Assembly: GCF_010672525.1 (NCBI RefSeq)
Contig: NZ_JAAHGH010000007.1
Coordinates: 172,265-236,264 of the forward strand
DNA: 64,000 bases
Origin: Okeania sp. SIO2B3
Lineage (GTDB): Bacteria > Cyanobacteriota > Cyanobacteriia > Cyanobacteriales > Microcoleaceae
Direction of reading: 5' to 3'
Numbering within the stretch: the first letter of the stretch is position 1; each line of letters begins with the position of its first letter. This document shows positions 15,676 to 62,502 of this stretch, piece by piece. Both the position numbers and the translations under genes were made by a program. The notes below the pieces were generated by a model. The model was given only the letters and a program-made list of their open reading frames with translations. It ran no database searches and had not been told where the DNA came from.

Positions 15676-16190
15676 TACCGAATAATTAATAATTAAATAA
15701 TTAAATAATTAAACAATTCGGGTTAAAAGCCTCCCCTTTCAAGGAGAAAAAAATAAATTTTTTCCTTATTTGTCAATCCTATCCCTTTTAGGGAGAGGTA
15801 ATTATCAAGTAAGCATTTCCTGCGGAATGCTGCGCAAACAGCTATTAGCTGTCAGCTCTTATGACCGGGTTTTAATAAATATAGACTGTTTTAGCCAGCT
15901 TTTAGGCGTAAGTATAAATTCTGGGTGTTACTGATAGATAGGCATGATTTGATGATTTTGTATTTTCGATTGTTTGAACTACTTGTTAATATTAACTTTT
16001 CCCTCCATACCTATTCCCAACTCCAGTGTTTCCTCCATACCTATAAACCTACTTTCATACCTTAATTCCACAATGCCTAATTCTGATAAATTAGCAAAGC
16101 TTTTATCTCAAACTAAAAGCAATAGCTGATAGCTGATGGCTGACGGCTGAATGCTTACATTATCAATTATCCATTAATGAACGCATCTAT
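15676..16190. repeat. family B MITE-like repeat, interrupted by a family A element
   Basis: Left part (15676-15808) starts TTACCGAATAATTAATAATT and carries the CCTCCCCTTTCAAGGAG and TTTAGGGAGAGGTAATTATC segments typical of family B. The right end (16159-16190) gives ATTATCAATTATCCATTAAT. Removing the intervening family A element and one 8-bp duplication restores a continuous family B end, as in the copy at 59576-59784. Confidence 0.75.
15809..16158. mobile_element. family A MITE (IS66-like ends), nested in family B
   Basis: Starts GTAAGCATTTCC and ends GGCTGAATGCTTAC; it is flanked on both sides by ATTATCAA, a perfect 8-bp duplication. At 350 bp it is the longest A copy seen. The subterminal part holds TGCGGAATGCTGCGCAAACA and AGCTATTAGCTGTCAGCT. 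It has no transposase. Ends starting GTAA with an 8-bp target duplication are features of IS66-family elements. Confidence 0.8.
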
Positions 16191-16370
16191 GAATAAAACA
16201 TACTATTAATACCAATTTCAGAAAATATTTTTCTAGAAGGTGACAAGTTCAGAAAATAATAGGCTATCGTCAAAAAAAAGTGTATAAAAAAAAGAAAAAA
16301 AGATGAAGATTTAAAATATATGTAAGGAATAAAAATTTCAACTATAGATAGAAAACACAGATTAATATTT

Positions 16371-16575
16371 CAACAATTAATAATTAATAATTAATAATTG
16401 TTGAAATATTAATTATTAATTATGTAATATAAGGATTGGCTAAAAGGATTTTTTTTCTTCTCTTGGTCGATTGGATATGGCGAGGAGACCTCGCCATCCA
16501 ACCCTACGGGAAGCTGCGAAGATCGACCGCTTTTTTCTCCATGAATGGAGAAGCTTTATACCTTAATTTTTCGGT
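16371..16575. repeat. family B MITE-like repeat
   Basis: Begins with repeated AATTAATAATT, contains AAGGATTGGCTAAAAGGA, the CTCTTGGTCGATTGGATA module, the palindrome GGCGAGGAGACCTCGCC, and ends near CCTTAATTTTTCGGTAA, the reverse complement of the TTACCGAA end. It lies about 160 bases upstream of the 544-residue gene. Confidence 0.7.
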
Positions 16576-16734
16576 AAGTAATTTGTCCTAAATGTATAAT
16601 AAAAAATACTGACAGCGATTAAATCCTAAAATATGACATATTTTTTGAGTATAGCTTAGTGCTAAATCCTGTACTATTAATTGCTCAGACATTAAATATG
16701 AGACAAGAGAGATAATTTATAAATAATCAAAATT

Positions 16735-18369
16735 ATGAATAAAAAACAACCATCATCCTTATGGAAATCAGTGACTGACAAGGCATCAACAGTTAGAGAC
16801 AATCTTGGTAAAAAAGTATCTAAAGCCGGACATTCAATCAGTGAACAAGCTTCCAAAACTGCTAAAAGTAAAGCTTCAGAAATAGAAGAAATTATTAGTA
16901 ATAAAACATCAGATGTTGGTAAATATTTTAGAGAAACTGTTAAAGAATCTGCTTTTGGAAAACAGCAAACTAATTCTGAATTATCGCCAGAAATAGAAAA
17001 TGATTTAGAACAAGAAGAAATATATCATATTTTTGTTGCTTATCAGGTTGCTAGTCAGGGAGGTACTCAAAAAGTAACTCTTAAATCAGGTAAAAGCTAT
17101 AACGTGAAAATTCGTATTAATAGTACTGAAGGCTCTACTTTACGATTAAAAAAATGCGGTTTACAAGGAAATGATGCTTTTCTAGTTTTACATACTTTTT
17201 ATAATCCCGAATTAAACATAGACCGTCGGATGAATAATTTAATAATTCATTCATCAATTTATGAAAGAAGTAAAACTAGATGTTTAGAAGCTTATAACAG
17301 AATTAATACTGGTTTATATGTTTATGATTTAGCAGCACTCAATCTATTGGATTTTCTTGTTAACTCTTCAAATATAGATTCCTTGATTGGTTTACGCTAT
17401 ACAATTGCCAGTGAAAATTCGCGGTGGATAGGTATTGATAAAAGTTTGGAAGAAGTTTTAGAATTTGCCAATTTAAGCGAAGTTAAAAAATATCAAATCA
17501 AGAGTATTTATCAATATATTAAAGCAGCAGACCCTTTACCTAAATTAGATGATTTTCAACAGTTGGATGCAATGGTTTTAAATTCAGCAATCTCCTCTGA
17601 ACTAAAAGATAAATATTTATTGGCAAGCGCAACATCAACTGGGTTAAGAATAGATATGTTGATTGTAGATTTAATTTACAGCAGCTCAGAAATAAATGAT
17701 AATCAGCGTCGGAAATATTTATCGTTATATCAACAGATTAAAGAAGGTGTAAAAATTAGAGATAATTTTATTTCAGAAAGTTTAGACACGATAATTATGC
17801 AGGCAGAAATTCCGAGAATCTGCAAGATTGTATATCAACTTTTAAGAGAAAGATATTTTGAAATAGAATTAGAATTAGAAAAACTAGACCGAGAAGAATT
17901 TTACTCAGTTTTTAACAAATTCAAGAAAGTAGAACAGTTTGTAAAACAGGCAGAAAATCCAACCAAAACTACAAATAGTTTTGGGAATATTGCCATTCAG
18001 AAAGGAATGTTAATCGAGGAAGTGAATGATGCTGTAGTTAGTGGTGGTGTTGGAGTATTAGCAGCAGTAAAAGTATTGAAAGGAGGAGAAGCTTTAATTG
18101 GAGCTGTTGGTTTAGTAGCGATCGCCTCAACTTTAGAAATGAGTACTCAGGATAAAATTAAATTAGGAATTACTGAGGAAGGAAATTTTTATGGGGCGGT
18201 TGCTTATAGTGGAATTATGAATGCTATTAATCAAGTTAGTTGGGTAATTAGCGATGGTGGAGAAAGAAAATTAGAGCAGAAATTAGATATTTTTGGAATT
18301 TTTAAAGGCAGTCAGGATAAAAAGCAAATTTTACAAGAGTTGGAAACTAAATTGTATAGTTCTAATTAA
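16735..18369 (+). CDS. 544-residue protein of unknown function, amphipathic N-terminus and Gly-rich hydrophobic C-terminus
   Basis: I do not recognise the family. Residues 1-75 are Lys/Ser/Ala-rich with repeats such as DKASTVRDNLGKKVSKAG and SISEQASKTAKSKASEIEEI, an amphipathic LEA- or apolipoprotein-like helix. The middle (75-410) is mixed and contains NRINTGLYVYDLAALNLLDF and several charged helices. Residues about 432-465 are hydrophobic and Gly/Ala-rich (SGGVGVLAAVKVLKGGEALI and GAVGLVAIAST), able to insert into or lie on a membrane. No signal peptide, P-loop or catalytic motif was seen. A second frame (18293-18886) overlaps its last 77 bases and may be its lost C-terminus after a frameshift. 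It converges on a GTPase locus that also has a hydrophobic tail. Confidence 0.7.
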   Translation: MNKKQPSSLWKSVTDKASTVRDNLGKKVSKAGHSISEQASKTAKSKASEIEEIISNKTSDVGKYFRETVKESAFGKQQTNSELSPEIENDLEQEEIYHIFVAYQVASQGGTQKVTLKSGKSYNVKIRINSTEGSTLRLKKCGLQGNDAFLVLHTFYNPELNIDRRMNNLIIHSSIYERSKTRCLEAYNRINTGLYVYDLAALNLLDFLVNSSNIDSLIGLRYTIASENSRWIGIDKSLEEVLEFANLSEVKKYQIKSIYQYIKAADPLPKLDDFQQLDAMVLNSAISSELKDKYLLASATSTGLRIDMLIVDLIYSSSEINDNQRRKYLSLYQQIKEGVKIRDNFISESLDTIIMQAEIPRICKIVYQLLRERYFEIELELEKLDREEFYSVFNKFKKVEQFVKQAENPTKTTNSFGNIAIQKGMLIEEVNDAVVSGGVGVLAAVKVLKGGEALIGAVGLVAIASTLEMSTQDKIKLGITEEGNFYGAVAYSGIMNAINQVSWVISDGGERKLEQKLDIFGIFKGSQDKKQILQELETKLYSSN

Positions 18370-18886
18370 CCAACAGTATAGGGTTTTAAAATTAGATGAT
18401 TCTGTATTTATTATCCAAGATTATCAAGGTTATATTTACAGAGATGGCAGTAGTAGAAAAGTAGAAATTTTAATCGAGAAAATTAGAGTAAGTCAGTATG
18501 CTAAAGGATCTACAAAAACAAAAATAGTTACATTGAAAGATGAGCAAATTTTAGATAAATTAAATTCTGTACAGGCAGCAGATGAAGTATATGTGTTTGA
18601 GAGTTTAGAGAAAGTTGATGATGTTAATAGTCTGAATTTTCCTGTTTCAAATAATTATTTATGGCCGATATGCTTAGAGGGGGAAAGGTTGATATTTCAT
18701 GCTGCTAGATTAGAGCAATTAGAAGTAGGAAATAGATACGGAACGGGACAATTAATAGTTATGAAGTTAGTTATTAAGAAATTTTTTATCGATAAACCCC
18801 CTTCAATAATTCAAAGGGGTTATGAGATTACAGTGTGTTACAGATGGCCTGTTTATAATGACTTCAGCTTGCGTTTGAGAGTTTAG
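18293..18886 (+). CDS. hypothetical protein; probable frameshifted C-terminus of the preceding gene
   Basis: The frame is open from a TTG at 18293 to 18886, but its first 25 codons lie out of frame inside the preceding gene and no ATG, GTG or ribosome binding site marks a start after that gene's stop at 18369. The protein-like part begins about QQYRVLKLDDSVFIIQDYQG and includes GYIYRDGSSRKVEILIEKIR and NNYLWPICLEGERLIFHAAR; it looks beta-rich. Moving from the upstream frame to this one needs a single-base shift, so one ancestral gene of roughly 700 codons broken once is the simplest reading. Translational coupling by overlap is the alternative. Function unknown. Confidence 0.55.
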   Translation: MEFLKAVRIKSKFYKSWKLNCIVLINQQYRVLKLDDSVFIIQDYQGYIYRDGSSRKVEILIEKIRVSQYAKGSTKTKIVTLKDEQILDKLNSVQAADEVYVFESLEKVDDVNSLNFPVSNNYLWPICLEGERLIFHAARLEQLEVGNRYGTGQLIVMKLVIKKFFIDKPPSIIQRGYEITVCYRWPVYNDFSLRLRV

Positions 18887-18893
18887 GCTGTAC

Positions 18894-19559
18894 CTAGTCA
18901 GCAAAGCCTTTGAAATAAGAGGGATCTACTGCAAATGTCGGAATAGGCTCACCTTCACGCCGAGCCTTAGCACACTTAATTAGGTAATCATTGACTAAAT
19001 TTCCAACTGCTTCAGTCAAACTAAACGCTAATCCAGATTGAATAACCGTACCCAACCCTGGAATTAATTTAGTTAAACTTGTTGCAAGCATTGTACCTGC
19101 TACTTGAGAAATCATAGGAGCAAAATAAGCTTTTACTCCTTCTTCAGTAAAACCGTACAATACAGTTAAAGATGCTATCATTCCATACTGAATTCCTGTA
19201 ATCCATAAAGAATCGCTAAGTGGAATAGGATCAGCTGCAGCTACTGCTGCAGCTACTGCTGCTGTATGAATGATAGTTTGGGCCTTTGCCTGTTTGGATT
19301 CTAAATCAATTAATTGTGCATTCATAATAGCTTCCTTATAGGCATCAGGCATCATTTTTATAGTTAGATTTAGTAATTTTTTGAGTTGCTTTTGGCTTTG
19401 TTTCTTTTTTTCATTTTCTATAGCCTCTGAATAGCCAGAAGTGGTAGATTTTAAACTATCATCATCATCATCATTTAGAAAGTCTAATGCCTCATAAGGT
19501 TCTGGTATATAAACAAAAACTGGAATAATTTTTTCTTTTGAAATATTTGCATCTGTCAA
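18894..19559 (-). CDS. C-terminal half of a split GTPase (DUF697/YcjF-like hydrophobic domain)
   Basis: Begins at a TTG exactly in frame with, and one codon after, the TAA that ends the GTPase half upstream (19563-19565). The start reads TDANISKEKIIPVFVYI, which continues the Rossmann-like GTPase fold past its G4 strand, so the two frames were one gene. Next comes an Asp-rich loop (NDDDDDSL), a lysine-rich helix, then a hydrophobic Ala/Gly-rich tail of about 100 residues (TAAVAAAVAAADPIPLSDS, ITGIQYGMIASLTVLYGF, SLTKLIPGLGTVIQSGLAFS), which resembles the DUF697/YcjF tail of membrane-associated GTPases. Whether this half is translated is unknown. Confidence 0.6.
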   Translation of the reverse strand: MTDANISKEKIIPVFVYIPEPYEALDFLNDDDDDSLKSTTSGYSEAIENEKKKQSQKQLKKLLNLTIKMMPDAYKEAIMNAQLIDLESKQAKAQTIIHTAAVAAAVAAADPIPLSDSLWITGIQYGMIASLTVLYGFTEEGVKAYFAPMISQVAGTMLATSLTKLIPGLGTVIQSGLAFSLTEAVGNLVNDYLIKCAKARREGEPIPTFAVDPSYFKGFAD

Positions 19560-19562
19560 TGT

Positions 19563-20039
19563 TTAAATCATCTCTTCAAGTTGTTTTTTACTCGTTCTGT
19601 CTACTTGAGTAATAATAGTAATGATATTTTTAAAACTTTTAATAAAATCAGTATCTGACTCTGTTACTCTTGCCAATGGCCCATGAATAGTATACCAAAT
19701 CATATGAATAGAACTATCAGGATTATTTTCTTTTGCTTTTATCCATTTTTTAGTTTCTTCTGTTAGCTCACTTTGAGCTTTATCATGTTCAAAACCTTTA
19801 GAATCCCAAACGTTAATATTAGGATTTTTATATTTTTCAAACCCTTGAGTCATTGGTTTACCATGACCAATTAACTTATCATCTACAGTATCTTTTCCAA
19901 ATAAACTCTGAATTATTGAAGTCTTTCCAGTTCCCGTATAACCACAAACAAGTATATTAGGTACAGCTTGTTTTTCTTTTTCTTTAATATAGTTTTCCAA
20001 AAAATATTTAAAACCCTCAGAGCTAGAGCTTGTGTTCAT
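19563..20039 (-). CDS. GTPase domain (N-terminal half of a split gene)
   Basis: A 158-residue P-loop GTPase. G1 is GYTGTGKTS (about residues 33-41), a candidate G2 threonine lies in KPMTQGFEKY, G3 is WDSKGFE, and G4 is TQVD, where the usual lysine of NKxD/TKxD is glutamine. It ends KKQLEEMI then TAA; the same frame continues TLTDANIS in the neighbouring open frame, so an AAA-to-TAA type change probably split a roughly 381-residue GTPase. The P-loop style resembles YfjP/DUF697-type GTPases. A downstream re-start could leave two polypeptides. The locus converges with the 544-residue gene; the two gene ends are eight bases apart. Confidence 0.75.
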   Translation of the reverse strand: MNTSSSSEGFKYFLENYIKEKEKQAVPNILVCGYTGTGKTSIIQSLFGKDTVDDKLIGHGKPMTQGFEKYKNPNINVWDSKGFEHDKAQSELTEETKKWIKAKENNPDSSIHMIWYTIHGPLARVTESDTDFIKSFKNIITIITQVDRTSKKQLEEMI

Positions 20040-20288
20040 ATATTAATATCCTAAGTTAATATCTTAAGTATTATCATATCATTGAGGGGCTACGAGGTTT
20101 AAATTCTTACAGGCTTTTTGAAAATCTTGACCTGTTAAATGTCAATTTTTCATCCATAATACATCCAACTTGATTCGGCAAGGTCTCCCGTTATAATCTG
20201 TGATTTAACGGGAGAGAAATTGCCTGGTAGTAAATTAAATAGGTTTCGATTGCTGTTCAAATCTAGCACTAAAGAGTAGTATAAAATT

Positions 20289-21542
20289 ATGATAATTACT
20301 CATTGCTACAAAGTTAAGCCCACTCCTGAACAGTCAGTCAAAATTGATTACTGGCTAGAACTATTACGAAGGCATTACAATTATGCTTTAGGTCAAAGAC
20401 TAGATTGGTTAAATAGAACTAGATGTCAAATTGACCGTTGTTCATTAATTTCATGTCCTATTGGCGAAATTCAAAAGTTGCCAAATTATTATTTTCAGCA
20501 ATCAGCACTTAAACAGACAAAAAAGTTATTTCCTGACTACAGAGAAATCTATTCAGAAGTCCAGCAAATTAACTTACAAAGACTAGATAAAGCTTGGAAA
20601 CGTTGGCTAATACCTGACAAAAAGGGTAAACGTGGAGGACGACCAAGATTTAAAAAATCAGGAAAGTTAAGGTCATTTTGTTTCAGTAGAGTCAATCATT
20701 CCAAAGCAGTAATTAAATTTGATGGAAAACAAATAATTACTACGAGGTTTGGTACTATTCGAGTAATAGTTCATAGAGCTATTCCAGACGGTATGACGAT
20801 AAAAACTGCAACTATAACTAAAAAAGCTGATGGTTATTATGTAAGTTTCAGTTTAGAAGATAAGTCGATTCCTAGTTTAATTCCTACAGAAAATATCAAA
20901 ACTGCTGTAGGTATAGATGTCGGCTTAAAAGAGTTCTTAACTACCAATACTGGTGAAACTGTTTCTGTTCCTAAATTCTATAGAAAATCTCAATCTAATT
21001 TAGCAAGAAAGCAAAAAAAAGTATCTAGAAAAGAAATTGGGTCAAACAACTGGAAAAAAGCACAAAATAAAATAGCTAAATTACATCAACATATTGCCAG
21101 ACAAAGAGAAGATTTTCACTATAAGACTGCTCATAAATTAGTTAAAGAATATGAGTTAATTGCTGTGGAAAACCTTAATATTAAAGGTTTAGCTAGAAAT
21201 AGCAAATTATCAAAATCAATTTATGATGTAGCCTGGGGAGTTTTTATTGAAAAATTGAATGCAGTGGCGGTAAAACGCGGTGTTCATATAATTAAAGTTA
21301 ATCCTCACAATACATCACAAAATTGTAGTAATTGTGGTCAAAAGGTACCTAAAACTTTGTCAGTTAGAACTCACTGTTGTCCTAAATGTAAAGTAGTTTT
21401 AGATCGGGACGAGAATGCAGCAATTAATATATTAAATAAAGCGTTAAACGAGGTGGGTATCATCTTGTCTGCTTGTGGAGGCTTAGATGTTAATCAGCCT
21501 GTGAAACAAGAAACTTCTTTGTTTGAGAAGCTCCCGTTATAA
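20289..21542 (+). CDS. tnpB: TnpB RNA-guided endonuclease, apparently intact
   Basis: At 417 residues it has all expected parts: an N-terminal HCYKVKPTPEQSVKIDYWLE region, RuvC-I GIDVGLKEFLT (aspartate about 210), RuvC-II AVENLNIKG (glutamate about 294), a zinc ribbon NCSNCGQK...CCPKC, and RuvC-III DRDENAAINIL (aspartate about 371). TnpB proteins use an RNA made from the element's right end to cut DNA beside a target-adjacent motif and so favour element retention. The three catalytic acids and four cysteines are present, so activity is possible. It is the only undamaged transposon gene in the window. Confidence 0.93.
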   Translation: MIITHCYKVKPTPEQSVKIDYWLELLRRHYNYALGQRLDWLNRTRCQIDRCSLISCPIGEIQKLPNYYFQQSALKQTKKLFPDYREIYSEVQQINLQRLDKAWKRWLIPDKKGKRGGRPRFKKSGKLRSFCFSRVNHSKAVIKFDGKQIITTRFGTIRVIVHRAIPDGMTIKTATITKKADGYYVSFSLEDKSIPSLIPTENIKTAVGIDVGLKEFLTTNTGETVSVPKFYRKSQSNLARKQKKVSRKEIGSNNWKKAQNKIAKLHQHIARQREDFHYKTAHKLVKEYELIAVENLNIKGLARNSKLSKSIYDVAWGVFIEKLNAVAVKRGVHIIKVNPHNTSQNCSNCGQKVPKTLSVRTHCCPKCKVVLDRDENAAINILNKALNEVGIILSACGGLDVNQPVKQETSLFEKLPL

Positions 21543-21570
21543 TCGCGAGATTTAACGGGAGAGAACTTCA
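21400..21570 (+). ncRNA. predicted right-end RNA (omega/reRNA) of the TnpB element
   Basis: In characterised IS605 elements the guide RNA overlaps the 3' part of tnpB and ends at the right end, with the guide being the flanking DNA. Here the last codons of tnpB run straight into a strong hairpin (CTCCCGTT...AACGGGAG) at 21531-21563, the right place for the terminal scaffold stem. Placement is by analogy only. Confidence 0.35.
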
Positions 21571-21684
21571 CAACACTACATAAGATATAGCGCTATAGTT
21601 TTAACTATCCACATCTAACGTTAATTCCTGGGTCCAAAAAAAGAAAATCAGAGGTTAAACTAACAACCCCTGACTATTTTCCAA

Positions 21685-21765
21685 TGCGGATGGCGAGACT
21701 CGAACTCGCAAGGCAAAGCCACACGCCCCTCAAACGTGCGCGTATACCAATTCCGCCACATCCGC
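21685..21765 (-). tRNA. tRNA-Leu (GAG)
   Basis: The minus strand folds as a class II tRNA: acceptor GCGGATG pairs with CATCCGC, the D arm has GGTATACGC, the anticodon arm CACGT-TTGAGGG-GCGTG gives anticodon GAG, a short variable arm follows, and the T arm is GCGAGTTCGAGTCTCGC. 81 nt with discriminator A; CCA is not encoded. Confidence 0.95.
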
Positions 21766-22183
21766 TCTAGTTAGCATCTATCAACCAAACTTCCAGAAAA
21801 TTATGGAATTTTAGCTAACAATATACAATAATAACATAAAATTCTGGAATGTCTACAAGAAATTTTCTAAAATCTTTTTAATGTAGTAGCCGTTGGGTTG
21901 GTTAGGACATTATCCCTCCTCTAAAATTTAGTCACAGTTAAGAATGTGCAAAGGGTCATTGACTCCCAATCGCTTATGACAAAAAATAAGGTCAATAGCT
22001 TCCCCCTTTCAAAGGGATAAAAAAGCGGTCGAAGGATGGCGAAGTTTCCTCGCCATATCCATGAGACCAAGAGAAAATAAACTTCAGTATTTCAACCCTT
22101 TGGCTTTAGCCAGAGTTACTGATAGCGTAGCTCCTCCAATAGGAGGCTAACTGATAACTGATAACTGATAACTGATAACTGAA
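21766..22183. repeat. spacer with a family B fragment and heptamer repeats before accC
   Basis: Contains the family B modules AAGCGGTCGAAGGATGGCGA and CTCGCCATATCC near 22022-22060, a TAGCTCCTCCAATAGGAGGCTA hairpin-like segment at about 22127-22149, and CTGATAA repeated about 4.5 times immediately before the accC ATG. AGGAGG is present but about 36 bases upstream of the ATG, too far for a normal ribosome binding site. Confidence 0.6.
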
Positions 22184-23542: not shown

Positions 23543-23650
23543 GTAAGTTGAGGCAAAAAAAAACTAAGTATGTAACAAAAAGTAAAGTAGCTCTAAAACC
23601 TCTTCCCTTCTGCCTTGTGCCTTCTGCCTTCTGCCTCCTGCCTTCATTAG

Positions 23651-23935
23651 CTACAGCATCATTCTCAATAAACCTTGCTGGCCTAAAAGCAACTCTCGTA
23701 ATAAACTGAAAATACCTACCCAAATAATCGGACTAATATCTACCCCACCTAGAGGAGGCACAATTTTCCTAGTGGGGGCTAAAAATGGTTCTGTCGGCCA
23801 AAAAATCAAATTAAACGGAAGTTGATTGATATTTACCTGGGGGTACCATGTGAGAACTATTCGGAAGATAAATAAGAAAGTCATTAACCCCAGGACAATA
23901 CCTAGAGTCCAATTAGCTAATGTCAGATAGTCCAT
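23651..23935 (-). CDS. YggT family membrane protein
   Basis: 94 residues with two hydrophobic segments: LANWTLGIVLGLMTFLFIFR at the start and GGVDISPIIWVGIFSLLREL near the end. Between them are the family blocks VLTWYPQVNINQLPFNLIFW and TEPFLAPTRKIVPPLGG. YggT proteins (related to plastid Ycf19/CCB3) are small thylakoid or plasma-membrane proteins linked to cytochrome assembly and nucleoid or membrane organisation in other organisms; the role here is not shown. It is convergent with accC. Confidence 0.9.
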   Translation of the reverse strand: MDYLTLANWTLGIVLGLMTFLFIFRIVLTWYPQVNINQLPFNLIFWPTEPFLAPTRKIVPPLGGVDISPIIWVGIFSLLRELLLGQQGLLRMML

Positions 23936-24142
23936 AAGACAATAAAAAAATGTAATTTTGTCGAGTAAAATTTGCTTTAAGTTATCTGATTGTATTTCAA
24001 ATTATCTAAACGTTGGTTGAAGACCCGCGCTCTCCATCCCCACTTATTTACTACTACCAAAATTTGTACTGAAAAAAATCGCAAACCGCTATAATATTGA
24101 AGATTAAAGTAAATCAAATTTTGTGGCAAAGGGCAATAATCC

Positions 24143-29457: not shown

Positions 29458-30359
29458 TTGAAAAAAAATTAATGGTTAATGGCTAATATCTAAATACAAT
29501 TTAAACATTAGCCGGTGGTGGTGCATAGTAATGGTAAAGGAGTGTGGGGAGATGGGGGGATGGGGAGTGTGGGAGAAATTAAAGAATATGTATCCTACCA
29601 TTACCATGCAGGACTATCCATTAGCCATTAACATTTAGCTATCAATAAATAATATCAAATCCGGTAGCATTGGCGTAATTAGATAAGGAGTTAGGAGTTA
29701 GTGGGACTTACACAAAACAGAAGTAGAAAATAGGCTCAAACATAGACAGGTAAAGATTTTTACGTCAAAAAGGCATAAATCCTGAATAAGCACGGGTTTT
29801 AGCCATTTTTAAAGTATCGACGTAATTTCCTGGTATAGACTGACTTTTAGGCATTTTCTATCCCAGAAAATGTCTAAGTACCATTAGGAAGGAAGAGAAT
29901 TTAGAAAGATTTGGCAATGACGCTCAGATGGAACATTTTTTTATACCAAATTAAGCTGATTTTAATAAAAATTAATTATCTTAGTACAAATCTAATTAAT
30001 AGCTAATAGCCAATAGCTAAATGTAATTAAAGAATTAGTAATAATTCAGTATAAGAGACTGTTTGTCAAATAAATAAAATATTAGATCGTGTAGGGTGCG
30101 AAGGGTGTTACGTAAAGTACTATCCCACAGCACGCAGTGCGTGAGGTATCAAACCTATATATTATTCCAGAAATGATCAGCGTACCGTCACACACCATAC
30201 TTAATCTTTATGTTGACAAACAACCTCTAAATTATAACCTCTAAGTAATTGAATCAGGTCAAACATCAGATTTGTAAATACTAATTTTTTGACTGTTTAA
30301 TAGCTAATAGCTAATAGCTAAATGTCATTCAAAGATTAGCTATTAGCATTAATTAAGCT
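29458..30359. other. spacer with a duplicated 3' fragment of the PPC gene
   Basis: At 30230-30280 the sequence CTAAGTAATTGAATCAGGTC and AAACATCAGATTTGTAA repeats the last codons and stop of the gene ending at 29457 (CAAGTAATTGAGTCAGGTCA, AAACATCAGATTTATAA). It is the tail of a second, otherwise lost, gene copy or a duplicated end. The rest is AT-rich with TAATAGCTAATAGC repeats. Confidence 0.6.
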
Positions 30360-30597
30360 GTAAGCATTCAGCTATTAGAAGTCAGCTCTTCGGTGCGGAA
30401 TGGGCTCGCATTCAGCTTTTTAATGAATGAACCAAGTATTTGTTTAACTTCTACTACATTTTTAAACAAAGAATTGAAGCACAAGAACAACGAGCTTAAA
30501 TTGTCCACTAAAGGTAATAAAGCTGTTTGCGCAGCATGACCTAGGAATAGCTGATAACTGACTGCTGTTTGCGCAGCATTCCGCAGGAAATGCTTAC
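30360..30597. mobile_element. family A MITE (IS66-like ends)
   Basis: Starts GTAAGCATTCAGCTATTAG and ends GCAGGAAATGCTTAC, 238 bp, with ATTAAGCT immediately before and after it (perfect 8-bp duplication). It is non-coding. It sits just downstream of the Hlip gene stop. Confidence 0.82.
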
Positions 30598-31901: not shown

Positions 31902-32032
31902 CGATCATAAATTAAAGATATTTTGTACTAGCTTAGTTGTGTTTTTTTTAGATAAAACAATATTAGCATTAATTATGAGTTTTTTGATTCCGATATTATT
32001 TTTATTTTACTACACTTCTATTAGTTTTTTCG

Positions 32033-32248
32033 TAAGCATTTCCTGTGGAATGCTGCGCAAACAGCTATTAGCTGTTAGCTGTCAGCTCTCATTAGAAGGT
32101 TTAAATGAATATAGACTTTAAAGCCAACTTTGGTAGTAAGTATAAATTCTGTCTCAATTAGTAAAGCTTTGATCTAAAACTAAAAGCAATAGCTGTTTGC
32201 GTAGCATCCCGCAGGGAAGTGCTGAAGCCCTGACGGCTGAATGCTTAC
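32033..32248. mobile_element. family A MITE (IS66-like ends)
   Basis: Starts GTAAGCATTTCC and ends GGCTGAATGCTTAC, 216 bp; flanks TTTTTTC/ATTTTTC are only an imperfect duplication. Internal AACAGCTATTAGCTGTTAGC and GACTTTAAAGCCAAC segments match the copies at 15809 and 43913. Confidence 0.75.
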
Positions 32249-32714: not shown

Positions 32715-33347
32715 TCATTATCTCTCCTTGAAAATAAGAGGATTGACTAGAAGGAAATTTTTTTTCTTTTCTCTTGGTATATTTGGATATAAAGCTCCCT
32801 TCGAGAACTGAGTTCAAGGAAAACCCAAGAATGAGGAGTAAATCGGCTTTTTCTGTTTTTCATTCTGCGCTTTCCATTCCGGCGATCACTTGAGCTATTC
32901 TATAATAGGCTAGGCGTTAACTTAATTCTGCGAAACGCAAAGCTGCCGTTTTTTCCTTTAAAGGAAATGCTTTAAACTCAATTTATCGGTAAAACTTAAA
33001 ATTAAAATTAAAAGCAAAGCTTGAGTAATTATGGATTAATTATACTGATGATTGACCAGAGCAAAAATTTCATTTTATCTTATTAGATGTAAAATCATAG
33101 TAATTCTTAAATTGTAGTGAATATTTTGATTTAATTAGATTTAATTTCATATTCAAATTAATAACTACTTACTAACCTAGCCATCAACTCCTATTACTAT
33201 GTACAGCTACCAATCAACAATTAATAATTAATTATTAATTATTAATTATTACCTCTCCTTGAAAACGGATAGGATTGACTAATTATAAAAAATTTTTCTT
33301 GTTTCTCCTTGAAAGGAGAGGATTTTTACCTTAATTATTCGGTAATA
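32715..33347. repeat. two family B MITE-like repeats in the sdhB-RDD spacer
   Basis: The first copy (about 32720-32995) holds TCTCTCCTTGAAAATAAGAG, AAGGAAATTTTTTTTCTTTT, CTCTTGG and ends near CAATTTATCGGTAA. The second (about 33207-33347) starts with AATTAATAATT runs, holds CCTCTCCTTGAAAACGGATA, and ends CCTTAATTATTCGGTAA. No gene is seen between 31902 and 33491. Confidence 0.6.
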
Positions 33348-33491
33348 ACTATATGTATATTAACTTCTATCTGGAAAACCAGCAAAAATTGACAAATAAA
33401 AAACGTGATAAAATTATAGAACAGTAACAAAAGCCAATCAAACAGTTACATATTCTCCTAACCAGACCAAAAAATAATTAAGGTCTATCTT

Positions 33492-34539: not shown

Positions 34540-34589
34540 AGATAAAGTGTTTGAGATTTGAGATTTTGGGTAAATCTGAAAAAGTTAAA

Positions 34590-34751
34590 AAGCATTCAGC
34601 AGTTCAGCGGTCAGCGGTCAGCTTTGCGCAAAGAGGATGAGCAACCCAAGCTTGGACGTTTCGGAATACGACCCTTGCCAGATGCCTAATTATATGCACA
34701 AAATTTGAGGCTGATATGCTGATAGCTAATAGCTGATGGCTGAATGCTTAC
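34590..34751. mobile_element. family A MITE, partial or divergent
   Basis: Begins AAGCATTCAGCAGTTCAGC and ends GATGGCTGAATGCTTAC, about 160 bp; the left end lacks the leading GT. Internal TGCCTAATTATATGCACAAA also appears in reverse orientation at 44850-44875. It lies between rpsR and the RNase gene. Confidence 0.6.
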
Positions 34752-43408: not shown

Positions 43409-44332
43409 TATCTAGATTCCTTTAACAGAATTTTATTGCTGATAGATTATCATATTCAGGTTAATCAGTCATTATCAGAAAATTCAGGAAAGTTTATTTC
43501 TAACTTGATTTTTGACTAGACTTATTGCAAAAGTCAAAATAATTTGTTTGACTTCTTTTGTTATCTATTTTTCTTTTCTGTTAACTGTGTCTTGTTCGCT
43601 TTTAATAGTTGGTGCATTTTTTTTATCTTTCCTTTTTTTTAATTTCGTAGATATGGAGGTGAAGTGTTCCACAGGAGAGTAAAAAATTGTTAATTATTGA
43701 ATAAAAATAGTTTATATTTTCTTGGAATTTTATCTTATTTTTACTTTGTTGAAGTTATTTTTTTTAGGTTTAATCATTAGCAAATCATGAAATATAAAAA
43801 TATAAGTTATTATACCAAGGGTAAAAAAATAATGTTATAAATACCGCAAAACTATGCTGCTAAATTATTTTGAATTTATTTGGTTAAAAGAATAGATTTG
43901 ATGTAAGCATTAAGCTATTAGCTGTCAGCTTTCAGCTCTCATTTCTCATCAAGGAGTTTAAATTAATATAGACTTTAAAGCTAGCTTTTGTAGTCATATT
44001 TAATTCTGACTCAGTTATTAAAGATTTTATCTTAAACTAAAAACAATAGGTGTTTGCGTAACATCCCGCAGGGAAGCACTCATAGCTGACGGCTGAATGC
44101 TTACGATTTGATTTCTCTTGACTACTGGCTACTAACTACTAAAAACACCTTGATTATTTGTAGCAAAATTTATAAAAATGGTATTATCTATTAACTAATT
44201 ATCTGACATAAAATCAAGAGGCCATATAGGAAATAAATTATTCAAAATTTAAGATTATATTCATAGCATTCAACAGTCTAGATGTGATATATAAAATTAG
44301 ATAGTCGATAATCATATATTTAGGAGTTAATA
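43409..44332. other. gene-free spacer with a family A MITE
   Basis: AT-rich, no gene. Between ddl and the next gene the only structured item is the MITE at 43913-44104. AGGAG about seven bases before 44333 serves the following gene. Confidence 0.5.
43913..44104. mobile_element. family A MITE (IS66-like ends)
   Basis: Starts GTAAGCATTAAGCTATTAGC and ends GGCTGAATGCTTAC, 192 bp, flanked on both sides by GATTTGAT (perfect 8-bp duplication). Internal GACTTTAAAGCTAGC and CATCCCGCAGGGAAGC are shared with the copy at 32033. Confidence 0.83.
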
Positions 44333-45719: not shown

Positions 45720-46105
45720 AATTAGGTAGTAAGCATTTCCTGACGGAATGCTCCGCAAACAGCAGTTCAGTGGTCAGCTTTGTGTAAAAGGGATGAGCAA
45801 CCTCTGCTAAAATTAAACGACTTGCTCGCGCGTCGGGGATATTTTACCGAATAATTAAGGTTTAAAGCCTCTCATTTATTTAAAGGAGAAACAATAAATT
45901 AATTTCCCCTACCGCATCAATCCTATCCGTTTTCAAGCAAAGATAATTATTAATTATTAATTATTAATTATTAATTATTAATTATTAAGGGACTGCTCTG
46001 CAAACAGATACAATTATCTATGCACTAACTTTTTAAGCTAATAGCTAATAGCTAATAGCTGATAGCTAATAGCTAGTTAAATTAAGTAAAATTTGAAAAA
46101 ATAAT
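45720..46105. repeat. family A fragment with a family B element inside
   Basis: Starts GTAAGCATTTCCTGACGGAA (45729) and continues AGCAGTTCAGTGGTCAGCTT as in the A copy at 34590. A family B element then begins at TTTACCGAATAATTAAGG (about 45842) and ends near 45998 in AATTATTAATT runs. After it come TGCTCTGCAAACAGATAC and CTAATAGCTAATAGCTGATA, A-type sequence without the final GCTTAC. Confidence 0.55.
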
Positions 46106-55945: not shown

Positions 55946-56230
55946 GAAGGGAGAAGGGAGTAGGGAGTAGGGGAATAGGGGAGTGGCTCACAGGGATTAT
56001 GGCACGGATACACGGATACCGAAGTCGTAGGGGCGAATGGCATTCGCCCGTACAGGAGTAGGGGAGTAGGGGAGTAGAGAAATGTCCGCGCTCTGTTTGC
56101 GTAGTGCTATGGATTTAGGATTTTTTACAAATAATTCAGATTTGCTGTATAATATAATAATGTGTATTTTCTGAAGATCGAAATTTAATTATCATTTTTG
56201 ACTTTTCAATTTTGACTTTGGATTTTTTAT
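55946..56230. other. spacer between comEC and tRNA-Ser
   Basis: Carries GGGAGTAGGGGA-type simple repeats, the GGAGTGGCTCACAGGGATTA plus TGGCACGGATACACGGATA repeat shared with 36872-36912, and GGGGCGAATGGCATTCGCCC, a 20-base palindrome at 56031-56050. No gene seen. Confidence 0.55.
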
Positions 56231-56315
56231 GGAGAGGTGGCAGAGTGGTCGAATGCGGCGAACTCGAAATTCGTTGAAGGGTGACTTTCCGTGGGTTCGA
56301 ATCCCACCCTCTCCG
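56231..56315 (+). tRNA. tRNA-Ser (CGA)
   Basis: Acceptor GGAGAGG pairs with CCTCTCC, the anticodon arm GCGAA-CTCGAAA-TTCGT gives anticodon CGA, a long variable arm (GAAGGGTGACTTTCC) follows, and the T arm is GTGGGTTCGAATCCCAC. 85 nt, discriminator G, CCA not encoded. Confidence 0.96.
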
Positions 56316-56370
56316 TTTAAGTTTAACTTATCTACAACATTGGCGATCGCCCTCACTATTAACTATTTTT

Positions 56371-57360
56371 AGTTGAATAAAAAGTCATGCGTATAGCCGA
56401 ATGATCCCTTATAGTAGATAAGATATCACAAAAATTGCAAGGATGCAACCAAAATTCCTTTGACCCGCGTTTTTTTAGGAGCTTCGCACAATGATAATAA
56501 ATATTGATTGGTGATTTTTCACTCAAGAGGTATGGATGGAAAGATTCGGTCGGGGAAAAACAAATATTTTTAGGAGCTTTTCACCATGAAAATATTTCTG
56601 CTATTGCTCTTGGAAAAATTCCTGAATATTTTGATTGTGTATTAGTTTAGAAGTTTAGTTGAATAAAAAGTCATGCGTATAGCCGAACGACCCCTTATAG
56701 TAGATAAGATATCACAAAAATTGTGAGGATGCAACCAACATTCCTTTGGCGCGCGACTTTTTAGAAGCTTCACATAATGAAAATGAATATTGGTGATTTT
56801 TCACTCTATGAGCTGTGAATAGAAAGATTCGGTCGGGGAAAAACAAATATTTTTAGGAGCTTTTCACCATGAAAATATTTCTGCTATTGCTCTTGGAAAA
56901 AATTCCTGAATATTTTGATTGTGTATTAGTTTAGAAGTTTAGTTGAATAAAAAGTCATGCGTATAGCCGAACGACCCCTTATAGTAGATAAGATATCACA
57001 AAAATTGTGAGGATGCAACCAACATTCCTTTGACGCGCGACTTTTTAGAAGCTTCATAAAATGATAATAAATATTGATTGGTGATTTTTCACTCAAGAGG
57101 TATGGATGGAAAGATTTGGTCGGGAAAAAACAAATATTTTTAGAAGCTTTTCACAGTGAAAATATTTCTGCTATTGCTCTTGGAAAAATTCCTGAATATT
57201 TTGATTGTTTGTTAGTTTAGAAGTTTAGTTGAATAAAAAGTCATGCGTATAGCCGAGCGGACCCTTATAGTAGATAAGATATCACAAAAATTGTGAGGAT
57301 GCAACCAAAATTCCTTTGGCGCGCGATTTTTTTAGGAGCTTCACAGAATGAAAATGTTGG
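56371..57360 (+). repeat. four tandem ~285-bp units resembling a decayed small gene
   Basis: Units begin AGTTGAATAAAAAGTCATGC at 56371, 56657, 56941 and 57227 (the last is partial). In one frame of unit 1 (56387-56650) an 88-codon frame can be followed: MRIAE, a stop, SLIVDKISQKLQGCNQNSF, then three stops, then LIGDFSLKRYGWKDSVGEKQ and IFLGAFHHENISAIALGKIP, ending EYFDCVLV. Units 2-4 read R where unit 1 has the first stop, unit 1 reads Q where the others have a stop, and unit 3 keeps the last block open (LEAFHSENISAIALGKIPEY). An alternative short frame, MKIFLLLLLEKFLNILIVY, starts at ATG 56586 behind AGGAG and is discussed in the findings. Confidence 0.7.
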
Positions 57361-57913
57361 TAATTTTCCACTAAACTAAGTAAGGAAGTATAGATAGAGC
57401 CGGAAAAATCTGATTTTAATCTGAAAAGTAGAGGAATAAAGAAGCATTTTTCAATATTTTTCCTGTATTACCGAATAATAAAGGTTTAAAGCCTCTCCTT
57501 TAAAGGAGAAACAAGAAAAAATAAAGTTCAATATTTCAAACCTCTGACTTTCCTAGGTCATGCTGCGCAAACAGGCAGAGAGAGGTACTGATAACTGTTA
57601 AGGCAGTTCCGACCATAGGAGGCTAACTGAAATGACCTCTATTCCACTCCCGACTGGTAACTCAAAAACTTAATCCCAGGCAAAAATACCAAATGGCTTC
57701 TATAAATGCGGATGGGACCCCGCGACGACGTTTTGCTAGCGCAAAGCTCTGCTAACGGCTGTCGCCGACATGAAAAGCTTTAGCTCCTCTTCCGGAGGCT
57801 AGTCAAAAGCGGTCGGAACCCGGCAAAGTTTCGGAGTCATGGGAATGCCGACTCCTGTGTTTAACTTTTAACTTTTAACTTCTGACTTTTAACTTCTGAC
57901 TTCTGACTTCCAC
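57361..57913. repeat. spacer with family B and GC-module fragments
   Basis: Starts with the end of the tandem array, then a family B end TTACCGAATAATAAAGGTTT (57470) with CTCTCCTTTAAAGGAGA. At 57530-57630 it resembles the accC leader (AATATTTCAAACC, AGGAGGCTAACTGA). 57700-57840 is GC-rich (GACCCCGCGACGACG, AGCGGTCGGAACC). TTTTAACTTCTGACTTC-type repeats close it. No gene. Confidence 0.6.
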
Positions 57914-59431
57914 TTAACCACCTATCCCTAAACGAGCAGCTAAAGCAGGAGTTAAAGGAAATAAAGTAGCGATCGCCACAAACAAAGCTAACAAACATAA
58001 AGTAGCTCGTAGATCGTCAGGTTCGATTAATTCATTTAAACAAGGGCGTTCCAAATTTCGCTGCAATACCAAAATAATAATCGCCCAATATAATGCTAAA
58101 GGATTAACCAGAGAAGCAATAACTAAAACCACAAAAGTGAAAAATGTTGCTCTACCTGCAACTTTCCGAGCATAAATTGCCTGAATAATTCTACCGCCAT
58201 CCAACTGACCCGCAGGCATAAGATTTAGCGCTGTAATTACCAAACCCAACCAACCGATAATTGCTAGTGGGTGAACATCTACTATATTTTGATTTACCGC
58301 CGAACCTAAAATCACCCGTGCTAAAGTTCCCACTAAAACAGAAGCTCTGAAAAATTCGGACGGCATCTGAAACATACTACCTTCGTGGGAAAGCAACAAA
58401 CCCACCAATAGCATTGCCAAAGAAAGTATTCCTCCAGCAGCAGGTCCGGCAAAAGCTACATCAAAAAGCACTTTTCTATTGGGTATTGCTGACTCGAAAC
58501 GGTTAACAGAGCCAAAACTGCCAATTTGCCAAGCTGGGAGAAAAAATGGCCAACTAAAGCGGACATTGTGACGTTTTGCCAAGACTTGATGGGCAACTTC
58601 GTGAATACCTAAAACTGCGCATAGACCAAGTGCAATGGGTAATGCTTCTGGATACCGTGCGGGTTCGTTGAAAAAGTCAAACCCTAATAATAAACCACCT
58701 GCTTCAAAACTGGTGGCAATAGTAGCGATCGCCAGCACAACTGCCAGAATTTTTTGGGATGTAGTAGCAGGTTGAGGGTCATTTTTGCTTGGTAAAATGA
58801 TGACTACTGGTTTACCTTCAGGACTTTCTATGAGGAATAGTCGGTAGCGATCGCCTAGTTTTTCTTTTAAATTGACTGATAATTTGGTATGGACTTTTTC
58901 TACATCTCCCCGTAAGTTACCTTTGAAAATAGCTCCTTCTTGATAAGGAATAGTTTCGGTGGTGAAGAAAGTATCGATACCAAAAATATCTTTAATTTTC
59001 TGGAGGTCTTCACTAGGGATAGGGATAAATTCTGGAGTTTGTTCTTTTTGTGGTTCAGTGTTTGCTATTTTATCCTGAGTTGGTTGAGTTTCTTGTTCAT
59101 TGCTAGATAGTTGTGAGGAGTCGCTGATGGTTTTGAGACCGGGTTGGTCTTGTGCATCTTTAGCTGCTATTGTTCGTAGCTGTCGTCCCAAATATATATA
59201 TAATCCTGTACAAGCTACGAGCAAAAATAGGACAAATACTAGGTTAAGATAAATTCCGGCAGCAAATAGAGCAAAAAATAGTAGCCAAGGTGCCATTAAT
59301 ACTACTGATTGTAACCAGGCTAGAATGCCTACTCTACCATAAGGTCTTGCTCTGTTGTATCCCCAACCGAGAATTCCCAGAGTGATTAAAGCTACTATGA
59401 CTGTGGTTATGTTTTCAGATATGTTATACAT
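57914..59431 (-). CDS. site-2 protease family membrane protein (EGY-like)
   Basis: 505 residues. Two N-terminal spans, a soluble domain about 85-220 (PIPSEDLQKIKDIFGIDTFF, IPYQEGAIFKGNLRGDVEKV), then a multi-span M50 protease region. The zinc motif is LGIHEVAHQVLAK (HEVAH, about 277-281) and the second site is NLMPAGQLDGGRIIQAIYAR. The layout matches chloroplast EGY proteases and their cyanobacterial relatives, which cut within membranes to control regulators or chloroplast development. It has no PDZ domain. Substrate unknown. Confidence 0.93.
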   Translation of the reverse strand: MYNISENITTVIVALITLGILGWGYNRARPYGRVGILAWLQSVVLMAPWLLFFALFAAGIYLNLVFVLFLLVACTGLYIYLGRQLRTIAAKDAQDQPGLKTISDSSQLSSNEQETQPTQDKIANTEPQKEQTPEFIPIPSEDLQKIKDIFGIDTFFTTETIPYQEGAIFKGNLRGDVEKVHTKLSVNLKEKLGDRYRLFLIESPEGKPVVIILPSKNDPQPATTSQKILAVVLAIATIATSFEAGGLLLGFDFFNEPARYPEALPIALGLCAVLGIHEVAHQVLAKRHNVRFSWPFFLPAWQIGSFGSVNRFESAIPNRKVLFDVAFAGPAAGGILSLAMLLVGLLLSHEGSMFQMPSEFFRASVLVGTLARVILGSAVNQNIVDVHPLAIIGWLGLVITALNLMPAGQLDGGRIIQAIYARKVAGRATFFTFVVLVIASLVNPLALYWAIIILVLQRNLERPCLNELIEPDDLRATLCLLALFVAIATLFPLTPALAARLGIGG

Positions 59432-59575
59432 AATTGTATGTGCAATTCAAAAATCTAAGATAGAATGCAGTAGGTTTTTCTATTATATTTTTACTAACAA
59501 AAGCAGTAATTTTCTAATGAAAACTCTTTGTTTTTCATACTTAACTTTTCAGGCATTTAATCAAAAAAGTTATAA

Positions 59576-59784
59576 TTACCGAATAATTAATAATTAATAA
59601 TTAAATAATTCTGGTTTAAAACCTCCCCCTTTAAGGGGAAAAAAGCGGTCGTTTGCGGAGCAGTCCGTTAGGATGGGATGGTGAGGTCTCCTCGCCATAT
59701 CCAATCGACCAAGAGAAGAAATAATATTTCCTTATATTCAATCAAGGACGGTTTTAACCAGAGGTAATTATCCATTATCCATTA
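59576..59784. repeat. family B MITE-like repeat, intact-looking
   Basis: Begins TTACCGAATAATTAATAATT, then TTCTGGTTTAAAACCTCCCC, an AAGCGGTCG/CGACC pair, GAGGTCTCCTCGCCATATCC, AAGAGAAGAAATAATATTTC, and ACGGTTTTAACCAGAGGTAA, ending near TTATCCATTAATG. Subterminal CTGGTTTAAAAC and GTTTTAACCAG are inverted. It serves as the reference copy. Confidence 0.75.
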
Positions 59785-59907
59785 ATGAAATTAGTTATTT
59801 AAAAAGTCTTTTATTAATTAAGTCTCAATCTAAACCTGCCTAAGTATTTTTTTGAAAAAAATCTGTTGAGCTGATTAATTTGTTACTTTTTTCCTCTAAA
59901 TTTTGCC

Positions 59908-60117
59908 GTAAGCATTCAGCCATTAGCGGTCAGCTTTCAGGAATTAGTAGCTTGAGGATTTGAGTAATATTTAGTCGTGAGCAAGTAGCTAATTTATTTC
60001 AGACTTTTAATTATGTTAAATCTTTAATTCTGATTCCTCCTTCAAGGGCAATTAAGTTAATAGTTGATTGCTAATAGCTGACACCTGTTTGCGCAACATT
60101 CCGCAGGAAATGTTTAC
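59908..60117. mobile_element. family A MITE (IS66-like ends)
   Basis: Starts GTAAGCATTCAGCCATTAGC and ends GCAGGAAATGTTTAC, 210 bp. Flanks are ATTTTGCC and CTTTTGCC (7 of 8 match). Non-coding. Confidence 0.75.
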
Positions 60118-60173
60118 CTTTTGCCTATACCAATAATTGCGATTTACCATTTCCCAAAAATGATGTTATTGAC

Positions 60174-61829
60174 TCACTCTTGCATGAATTTTTCTGTCGC
60201 TCCTGTATCAACATGAACATAACTGCGACGTTTAGCAGCTGTATAATTTGGATTGAGTCTAATTGCTTGATTATAATCAGCGATCGCCCCCCAATTATCT
60301 CCTACTTTTCGCAATACATTTCCCCGTCGATAATAAGCTTTCGGATGAGTGGCATCTAATTTAATTGCCTGATTATAATCATCAATTGCTCCTTGATAAT
60401 CTTCTAATTTTTCTTTAACATCACCTCTATAAATATAAGCATCTGAGTGACCTTTATCCATCTCTATTGCATGATTAAATTCTGCCAAAGCCAATTGATA
60501 ATTTTGCTGTTCATATTCTTTTAATCCCTTTTGATAAAAATCATTGAATCCTAGCTTTTCATTTTCACTTTTTATTTCTGTATATTCTTCAAATTCAGTT
60601 TTTTTTTCTGTGATATTTTCTGTTTTTTCTTCTATATTAACTAATAAATTTTTGAGAGAATTAGCTACTATCAAGCTTCCAGCCACAGCCTCTTTTCTTG
60701 CCCATTTATCTGTAGCTAAAATATCATCTAAAGTAGGATTTTTCTGATAATCTGATTTATGCTTTTCACATACATATTCAATCAACTTAGGAATATCCAA
60801 AAAAGGAATTTTTTCTTCTAAAAATAATGCCACAGCTTGTTCATTTGCCGCATTCAAAGCCGCAGGCATCGAACCACCTATACGACCCGCAGCATAAGCC
60901 AATTGAATACAAGGATATTTCAAATTATCAGGTTCCTTAAAAGTCAAACTACCAGCTTTAACTAAATCTAATTGTTTCCAATCAGTATAAATCCTTTCCG
61001 GCCAAGATAAAGCATAAAGTAGAGGCAAACGCATATCTGGCCAACCCAACTGAGCTAAAACAGAAGTATCTTGTAACTCAATTAAAGAGTGAATTATACT
61101 CTGAGGATGAATGACTATATCAATATTGTCATAATCTAATCCAAACAAATAATGAGCTTCAATAACCTCCAAACCTTTATTCATCATTGTGGCAGAATCA
61201 ACGGTAATTTTCCGACCCATGGACCAGTTAGGATGTTTAATAGCATCCGCCACTTTTACGTTTGATAATTTCTCAATTGGCCAGTCTCGAAAAGCACCGC
61301 CAGAAGCAGTTAAAATAATTCTGCGTAAACCCTCTTTAGGCACACCTTGAAGACATTGGAAAATTGCTGAATGTTCTGAGTCAGCAGGCAACAATTTTAC
61401 TCCGTGTTCCTCAATTAAGGGATTTACAACTGGGCCTGCTGCGATAAGTGTTTCTTTATTTGCCAAAGCAATATCTTTTCTGGCCTCAATAGCGGCGATC
61501 GTCGGTAATAAACCAGCACAACCGACAATACCTGTGACTACAGCTTCTGAGTCACCATATCTAGCAACTTCGATGACACCATCTTGGCCTGCAAGCAATA
61601 TGGGTTGAGGTCTCAGGTCAGCAATGGCCTCTTTTAACTCTGTAAATTTAGACTCATCATTAATAGCAACAATTTCAGGGGAGAACTGCCGTACTTGTTG
61701 GGCTAACATTTCGACGTTGCGTCCAGCAGCTAACCCAATAACTCGAAATTTGTCTGGGTTTTGAGTAACAATATCTAAGGTTTGAGTACCAATAGACCCT
61801 GTAGATCCCAAGATTGTAATTGCTTTCAT
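60174..61829 (-). CDS. dxr: 1-deoxy-D-xylulose 5-phosphate reductoisomerase with C-terminal TPR extension
   Basis: Dxr makes methylerythritol 4-phosphate, the committed MEP-pathway step toward carotenoids, phytol and quinone tails. Residues 1-390 are a complete Dxr: [18 protein letters not shown] (NADPH), [49 protein letters not shown] and [20 protein letters not shown]. An acidic linker (about 390-426) leads to about 125 extra residues with three tetratricopeptide repeats ([60 protein letters not shown]). Normal Dxr is about 390 residues, so this is a fusion. The single open frame shows no frameshift at the junction. TPRs may dock the enzyme to a partner. Confidence 0.95.
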
Positions 61830-61977
61830 ATTTTTTGAAAAAATTTGTCCACAATTACACTATACGATTCATTGGTGATTTTGTGTTATGACTTTAAGCA
61901 TTCAGGTATCAGCTTATGGGCTCAAGTAAAAACTATTTGTAGTGCTATAAGAGGCTGTTTGCTAAAGTCATAGTTTA

Positions 61978-62174
61978 TTAATTGATAATTGATAATTGAT
62001 AATTACCTCTGGTTAAAACCGTTACGGAATTGAATATAAGGATATATTATTTCTTCTCTTGGTTGATTGGATATGGCGAGGGGACCTCGCCATCCCTCAA
62101 CCGCTTTTTTCCCCTTAAAAGGGTCGGCTTCAAGGCGCGAATTATTTAATTATTAATAATTAATAATTCGGTAA
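61978..62174. repeat. family B MITE-like repeat
   Basis: Holds ACCTCTGGTTAAAACCG, TATTATTTCTTCTCTTGGTT, GGCGAGGGGACCTCGCC, CCCCTTAAAAGGGTCGGCTT and CAAGGCGCGAATTATTTAAT, ending AATTCGGTAA. Confidence 0.75.
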
Positions 62175-62309
62175 TACTAAATCTAGTTATGAAAAGCTAG
62201 TGTCCAAATCCTTTTAAGCCTTCTGTATTCTGCCCTCTGATTTATATCCTAGCTTCACAATAAACCTTCTTTCCCTCACTAGATTTAGTATAATCTGTTT
62301 TTGTTATTT

Positions 62310-62502
62310 GTAAGCATTCAGCTATTAGCATTCAGCTCTCAGCTTTTTCATGAACTATGTGACTCGATAGACTATTAAAGTTAACTAATATACTCTTACC
62401 CATACTTTTAATTCTTTGAAATCTCTCAATTGCTTTTTCCTCCTTTAAAAGTAATAATAAAGCTGATAGCTGATAGCTAATAGATGACTGCTGAATGCTT
62501 AC
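62310..62502. mobile_element. family A MITE (IS66-like ends)
   Basis: Starts GTAAGCATTCAGCTATTAGC and ends ACTGCTGAATGCTTAC, 193 bp, with TGTTATTT on both sides (perfect 8-bp duplication). Ends 36 bases before the carotenoid oxygenase stop. Confidence 0.82.

Follow-up and report, generated by a model that had tools for sequence, protein, structure and literature searches.

A 64,000-nucleotide stretch of DNA from the cyanobacterium Okeania sp. SIO2B3 (contig NZ_JAAHGH010000007.1, positions 172,265 to 236,264; hereafter the window) was found to contain copies of a large family of miniature inverted-repeat transposable elements (MITEs). These short elements are flanked by 8-bp target site duplications (TSDs), share their tips with IS66 parts in the same genome, and have been inserted at single-copy targets in relatives. 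They are probably non-autonomous IS66-type MITEs, a reading to which we give a probability of about three in four. An IS66-family DDE transposase, whose own element has the tip GTAAGCATTCAG, would act in trans on the matching MITE tips, and this transposase would drive MITE insertion with 8-bp target duplications. The ends and the duplication length are what point to this transposase clade as the mover. The genome is a draft (10.0 Mb, 249 contigs, 99.85% complete), and the window lies on the contig designated C217.

MITE copies in the window

Four copies with perfect 8/8 duplications were located at 15809..16158 (350 bp, TSD ATTATCAA), 30360..30597 (238 bp, ATTAAGCT), 43903..44104 (202 bp, GATTTGAT) and 62310..62502 (193 bp, TGTTATTT). 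All four begin with GTAAGCATT and end with AATGCTTAC, which constitute terminal inverted repeats, and when flank lengths of 4–12 were tested, a perfect repeat was seen only at length 8. The copy at 15809 carries a 21-bp insert in its left end that resembles cyanobacterial small dispersed repeats (SDRs), and it is common to the relative G004 with the same TSD; the copy at 62310 is also common to G004. The copy at 59908..60117 (210 bp) has the 21-bp insert in its right end, and its flanks ATTTTGCC and CTTTTGCC agree at 7 of 8 bases. Further copies were less well preserved: the TSD at 32032..32248 (217 bp) is not intact (GTTTTTTC/ATTTTTCG), the imperfect copy at 34588..34751 (164 bp) has the left tip AAAAGCATT, and a relic at 45729..45900 (right limit approximate) retains the left end only, its right end not being found. 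A decayed copy of 185 bp at 13171..13355 has flanks GATCGTTA and GATAATTA that match at 6/8. The longest ATG-initiated open reading frame (ORF) per copy was 12–38 aa (eight copies).

An earlier note on this DNA had described most of these copies. Its perfect duplications at 15809-16158, 30360-30597 and 62310-62502 were seen as identical flanks, and its count of 7 of 8 bases at 59908 was reproduced. The duplication of the third perfect copy was also right, but the start given, 43913, had to be moved to 43903, 10 bases lower. Likewise, the three copies called imperfect are so, but the starts of two of them (32033 and 34590) were corrected by one and two bases, respectively, and the decayed copy at 13171 was absent from that note.

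Abundance of the ends and target duplications

In the window, the 10-base end was found 17 times with at most one mismatch, against a mean of 4.71 and a largest value of 11 in 100 shuffles. Over the whole genome, the 13-base end GTAAGCATTCAGC (≤1 mismatch) gave 226 + 229 matches, compared with 3 + 1 for the reversed pattern, and a second end type, GTAAGCATT-TCCTGCGGAATGC (≤3 mismatches), gave 171 + 159, compared with 0 + 0 for the control.

Duplications were examined in 1,548,776 bases (C1 1–320000, C112 1–500000, C2, C13, C24, and C217 to the end of the window) by taking the nearest facing tips, each with at most one mismatch and 20–600 bp apart, while ignoring the flanks. The flanks of the 76 facing pairs so obtained matched at 8/8 in 28 pairs, at 7/8 in 14 and at no more than 5 bases in the remaining 34. 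When the right flanks were re-paired (200 rounds), the means were 0.40 pairs at 8/8 and 0.52 pairs at 7/8, which are over-estimates because self-pairings were left in. Perfect duplications at lengths 3–12 were found in 4, 1, 0, 0, 1, 28, 0, 0, 0 and 0 pairs, respectively. Where both tips were exact (32 pairs), 18 were 8/8 and 7 were 7/8. The A+T content of the 28 perfect duplications was 79%, compared with 63% for the searched sequence. The genome search for the ends proposed earlier, together with the inspection of flanks, thus gave hundreds of ends and 8-bp duplications far above chance, at length 8 only. Target duplications of one fixed length, as is characteristic of MITEs, are present.

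Presence and absence of copies in relatives

The sequences on either side of nine window copies were compared with the corresponding regions of four congeners, G001–G004. The clearest cases were two 184-bp copies in G004, both with 8/8 duplications, whose targets CAAAAGTC (62673..62680) and AGTAGGAT (62998..63005) are each present once in the window as base-exact empty sites. Both insertions fall within a gene of the RPE65 family (62539..63984, minus strand; PF03055, 1.2e-120), which is intact in the window and encodes 481 aa.

Unoccupied sites, of varying quality, were also observed for four window copies. The site of the copy at 32032 was empty in G002, G003 and G004, and also in G001, where no more than a short piece of the right-hand flank aligns. 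The copy at 30360 was absent in G001, where ATTAAGCT occurs singly; the left flank was matched by eye, and blastn gave no match. At this site, G004 has a 48-bp form flanked by ATTAACCT and ATTAAGCT, and ∼500 bp of different sequence are found there in G002 and G003. The copy at 13171 was absent in G004, where the alignment to the right of the site extends for only ∼16 bases and then gives way to other sequence. The site of the copy at 34588 was occupied in G001 and G004 and unoccupied in G002 and G003, with a junction that was not base-exact. The compared congener stretches showed no clean empty site for the copies at 43903, 45729 and 59908. The mapping of orthologs was thin (10 elements of G000, 10 of G004 and one of G003), with 10 comparisons resolved and some sites counted both ways. 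Presence of individual MITEs in one relative and absence in another was observed.

IS66 parts with matching ends

A profile search of the genome with PF03050 gave five matches. None of them was on C217, so the earlier statement that the window lacks an IS66 transposase holds. A reference for the clade was provided by a Moorena element, L056, of 1543 bp, which encodes an open 481-aa protein (PF03050 at 7e-44), has GTAAGCATTCAGGTG at both ends and is flanked by the TSD CTAAATTA. With this 481-aa homologue, an N-terminal part (residues 1–230, 73%) was found near the edge of contig C191. Contig C22 contains an open frame of 276 residues that matches IS66 transposases over their C-terminal part, and the end GTAAGCATTCAGGTGTAGGGGTTGAC lies past its stop codon. 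The ends on C191 and C22, both GTAAGCATTCAGGTGTAGGGGTTGAC, agree with those of the MITEs at 12 of 13 bases, and 9 bases are common to the insert-bearing MITE ends. On both contigs AATTCAAC stands outside the IS66 end, and the opposite, broken side of each part continues into inverted repeats, GGAGAGTGAAAAAAATCGGGGGAGATGACA, that belong to another insertion sequence (IS). C191 and C22 are best read as carrying one IS66 copy with an 8-bp duplication, into which the other element would later have inserted; the assembly does not join these contigs. The GGAGAGTGAAAAAAATCGGGGGAGATGACA insertion sequence was seen at or near the edges of C37, C56, C191 and C22 (L338–L341).

The matching ends and probable 8-bp TSD on C191 and C22 agree with the earlier proposal of IS66-type MITEs. 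That a mover resides elsewhere in the genome can be upheld for the past at best: matching ends were found, but the element is represented by two contig parts only. No intact IS66 of the GTAAGCATTCAGG clade was found in the draft, in which the 481-aa query gave, besides the two halves, only pieces that were smaller or divergent. Since the only IS66 parts found are split, transposition in this strain has probably ceased or become rare, and the MITEs have probably been left stranded by a mover that once worked. Another IS66 remnant, on C102 of the same genome, has the ends GTAAGGATTCAGGTGAGAGCGATCG and no duplication.

Ends of the same clade were also present in the congeners G001 (L351), G002 (L287) and G003 (L285, one mismatch), and in G004 (L273), where one end is exact and the other has one mismatch. 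IS66 loci of named genomes were scanned more widely (52 of 80 loci, with flanks of at least 7/8 required). An element could be bounded at 23 loci, and 29 gave none. GTAAG-ended elements were found at 22 of the 52 loci, all 22 with an 8/8 duplication; the other bounded locus, L133, begins with TTCGG and was set aside as unrelated. Most ends of the 22 elements were GTAAGG, while those nearest the copy of this genome were mostly GTAAGC, as in the MITEs. Passages of PMC11946415 describe IS66 ends that start with GTAAGCG and 8-bp repeats.

Which transposase moved the MITEs

Several observations weigh against an IS66 mover. Tip identity ends after 12 bases, and in insert-bearing ends after only 9. 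No internal similarity between MITEs and IS66 was seen, although no dedicated comparison of the cores was made. The flank AATTCAAC sits in an A+T-rich, partly repeated stretch, which leaves room for two separate IS66 copies. A copy of the same clade in G021 (L284) has the end CCAAGGATTCAGG. In addition, the distribution across genomes is uneven: relics of the clade occur in G000–G004 and G021, and none in G016 and G011. G016, which belongs to another genus of the family and is 99% complete, has 105 + 116 = 221 exact ends, and 17 of 30 end loci examined there had a partner and a duplication of at least 7/8, several of these loci representing both ends of a single element. Nevertheless, it gave no PF03050 match (E up to 1) and no match to P0001 or the L056 protein (E 0.001). 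Because G016 is rich in ends and has no IS66 match, either the mover has been lost there or a second transposase serves these ends. G011 (124 + 122 ends) was likewise without an IS66 match, but is only 83% complete. Conversely, G031 has nine IS66 matches and lacks the MITEs, with just one end at one mismatch.

These observations raise the question of whether the MITEs were moved by a transposase from a different family, likewise producing 8-bp duplications, with the likeness to IS66 tips being convergence. The absence of IS66 relatives in the MITE-rich G016 and G011, and the small number of IS66 parts compared with hundreds of MITE ends, would fit such a mover. However, an element in the same genome shares 12 identical terminal bases and the same duplication length with the MITEs. 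Moreover, when end pairs up to 6 kb apart with a duplication were collected (1.55 Mb), none exceeded 472 bp, save re-pairings in one repeat cluster, and the ORFs within 22 of 114 partnerless ends (those with the clearest tips) were only host-like genes with no look of a transposase, as judged by eye with no profile search. We consider a mover of another family unlikely, if still deserving of weight. A much fainter chance was assigned to the divergent IS66-like protein of C186: its frame is open (493 aa, PF03050 6.4e-12) and its homologue L204 in G001 is flanked by the 8-bp duplication GTTTTGCG, but L204 has the ends GTATCCACTCAATATGATGGGG, also recognised by eye beyond the C186 gene, which are unlike the MITE tips GTAAGCATTC. 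The mismatch of the ends led us to set this candidate aside. The divergent element itself, ∼2 kb long, was observed in G001, with the 493-aa homologue in G000 (L204 186-2182; L037 3942-5423). Finally, the arrays of heptads and palindromes might have grown in place and never been mobile. The ends are indeed repeat-rich and alter in place between relatives, but the base-exact empty sites with a single target copy and the duplications found only at length 8 make this explanation barely credible. Insertion in trans by the transposase of a GTAAGCATTCAG-tipped IS66-family element is the reading retained.

Anatomy of the elements and changes after landing

For the description of the elements, a set of 43 was chosen separately (duplication of at least 7/8, 60–600 bp, end-sharing pairs removed). 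They were 145–472 bp long, and 30 had perfect duplications. At the blastn threshold used, they formed groups of 26, 5, 4, 2 and 2, with four singles. The largest ATG-initiated ORF was 58 aa, so none of the 43 encodes a PF03050 transposase and they are not IS66 members themselves. In one nested case on C112, a copy at 76791-76977 lies inside another at 76618-77039.

Beyond GTAAGCATT, the elements continue either directly with CAGCNNT heptads or with the 21-bp insert TCCTGCGGAATGCTGCGCAAA followed by heptads. Among 85 heptad arrays (at least three heptads), 48 were within duplication-bearing elements, which account for ∼0.7% of the bases. With ≤4 substitutions, the 21-bp insert was matched 43 times, compared with 0, 0 and 0 for three shuffled patterns; 17 of the matches were in duplication-bearing elements and 23 stood behind tip-like sequence. 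The insert was preceded by T and followed by C in all 43, and by CAGC in 27. Another repeat module, GCCTCCTATGGTCGGAACTGCG (≤5 substitutions), was matched 15 times, 8 of them in duplication-bearing elements, with shuffled controls of 1, 0 and 0.

The elements have changed after landing. Among the orthologs at 34588, the insert is lacking from the window copy and present in a 22-bp version at the left end of the G001 copy, and a 21–22-bp insert stands at the right end of the G004 copy; the insert was therefore gained or lost after landing. An insertion, a precise loss or an exchange with another copy may each account for such a change. Similarly, the 48-bp form in G004 where the window has 238 bp indicates that shortening in place does occur. 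A still shorter form, the 26-bp palindrome GTAAGCATTTCCTGCGGAATGCTTAC, had 132 matches in the genome (≤3 mismatches), and many of the 100 listed were ordinary insert-bearing ends. Of its first 30 loci, 21 have TTAC or TTAA as their last four bases, with flanks at 8/8 in 11, 7/8 in 5 and ≤6 in 5. The other nine (L362, L372, L373, L374, L376, L377, L378, L379 and L381) were excluded for their last four bases, and had 1, 1, 0, 5, 4, 7, 1, 1 and 2 matching flank bases, respectively. If the palindrome were itself a mobile unit, few known transposable DNAs would be smaller, but we regard this as improbable. The 26-bp forms more likely arose by collapse in place, through a deletion joining GGAATGCT of the left insert to the similar bases GAATGCT of the right tip.

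Other repeats were seen nearby. At C217 142700-143004, a family MITE contains, as judged by eye, an inner insertion of ∼118 bp; its ends resemble ATACCA...TGGTAT, and it may be a different MITE. A repeat of ∼190 bp at window positions 29698-29888, with GGGACTTACACA near its start, is perhaps another MITE or an IS remnant; it had many matches in all four congeners, at roughly 80–93% identity among the matches listed. A repeat of ∼150 bp at 33214-33366 (AATTATTAATTATTACCTCTCC...TTATTCGGTAATAA) had matches dispersed in the congeners. Other intergenic tandem heptads, GTCAGGA and GTCAGAA, were noted at L032 and L278 and are unlike CAGCNNT.

Comparison with known systems

This kind of element is already known and the present case is well documented; the link to IS66 was not met in the literature searched. 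No title or abstract opening on MITEs with IS66 or Okeania dealt with this family, most subscription journals being outside the coverage, and IS66 was not mentioned in the sections of the review PMC10969869 that were available. What the case offers is a large cyanobacterial MITE family tied to a named IS family, with its likely source element found split in this genome. In this readable example, passengers outnumber, and perhaps outlive, their mover. It also documents, at the sequence level, MITE insertion into a gene of a close relative, and the gain or loss of inserts in place together with the 26-bp forms shows how such elements change after landing.

Like IS66 family members (PF03050), the MITEs have the tip GTAAGC and an 8-bp target duplication; unlike them, they lack a transposase gene, measure 145–472 bp in the main set and have only 9–12 terminal bases in common with the IS66 element found here. 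The 21-bp insert TCCTGCGGAATGCTGCGCAAA is, by description, like the cyanobacterial SDRs, in particular SDR5, in being short, partly palindromic and dispersed. However, SDR5 inserts between bases 3 and 4 of HIP1, according to the parts of PMC4390886 consulted, whereas the insert here is fixed between T and C, often with CAGC behind. The family resembles type I MITEs, which share their ends with a resident IS (as outlined in part of PMC3542288), in being short and non-coding, in its inverted ends and TSDs, and in having more copies than the IS; it differs in its cores, not all of which are linked by blastn at the threshold applied, and in having very short shared ends. The same account gives 147 copies of 77–541 bp for the MITEs of Anabaena sp. 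90, which are called type II, with no matching IS ends. As far as that description goes, the two families are alike in size, cyanobacterial host and high copy number, and they differ in that a matching IS66 was found here.

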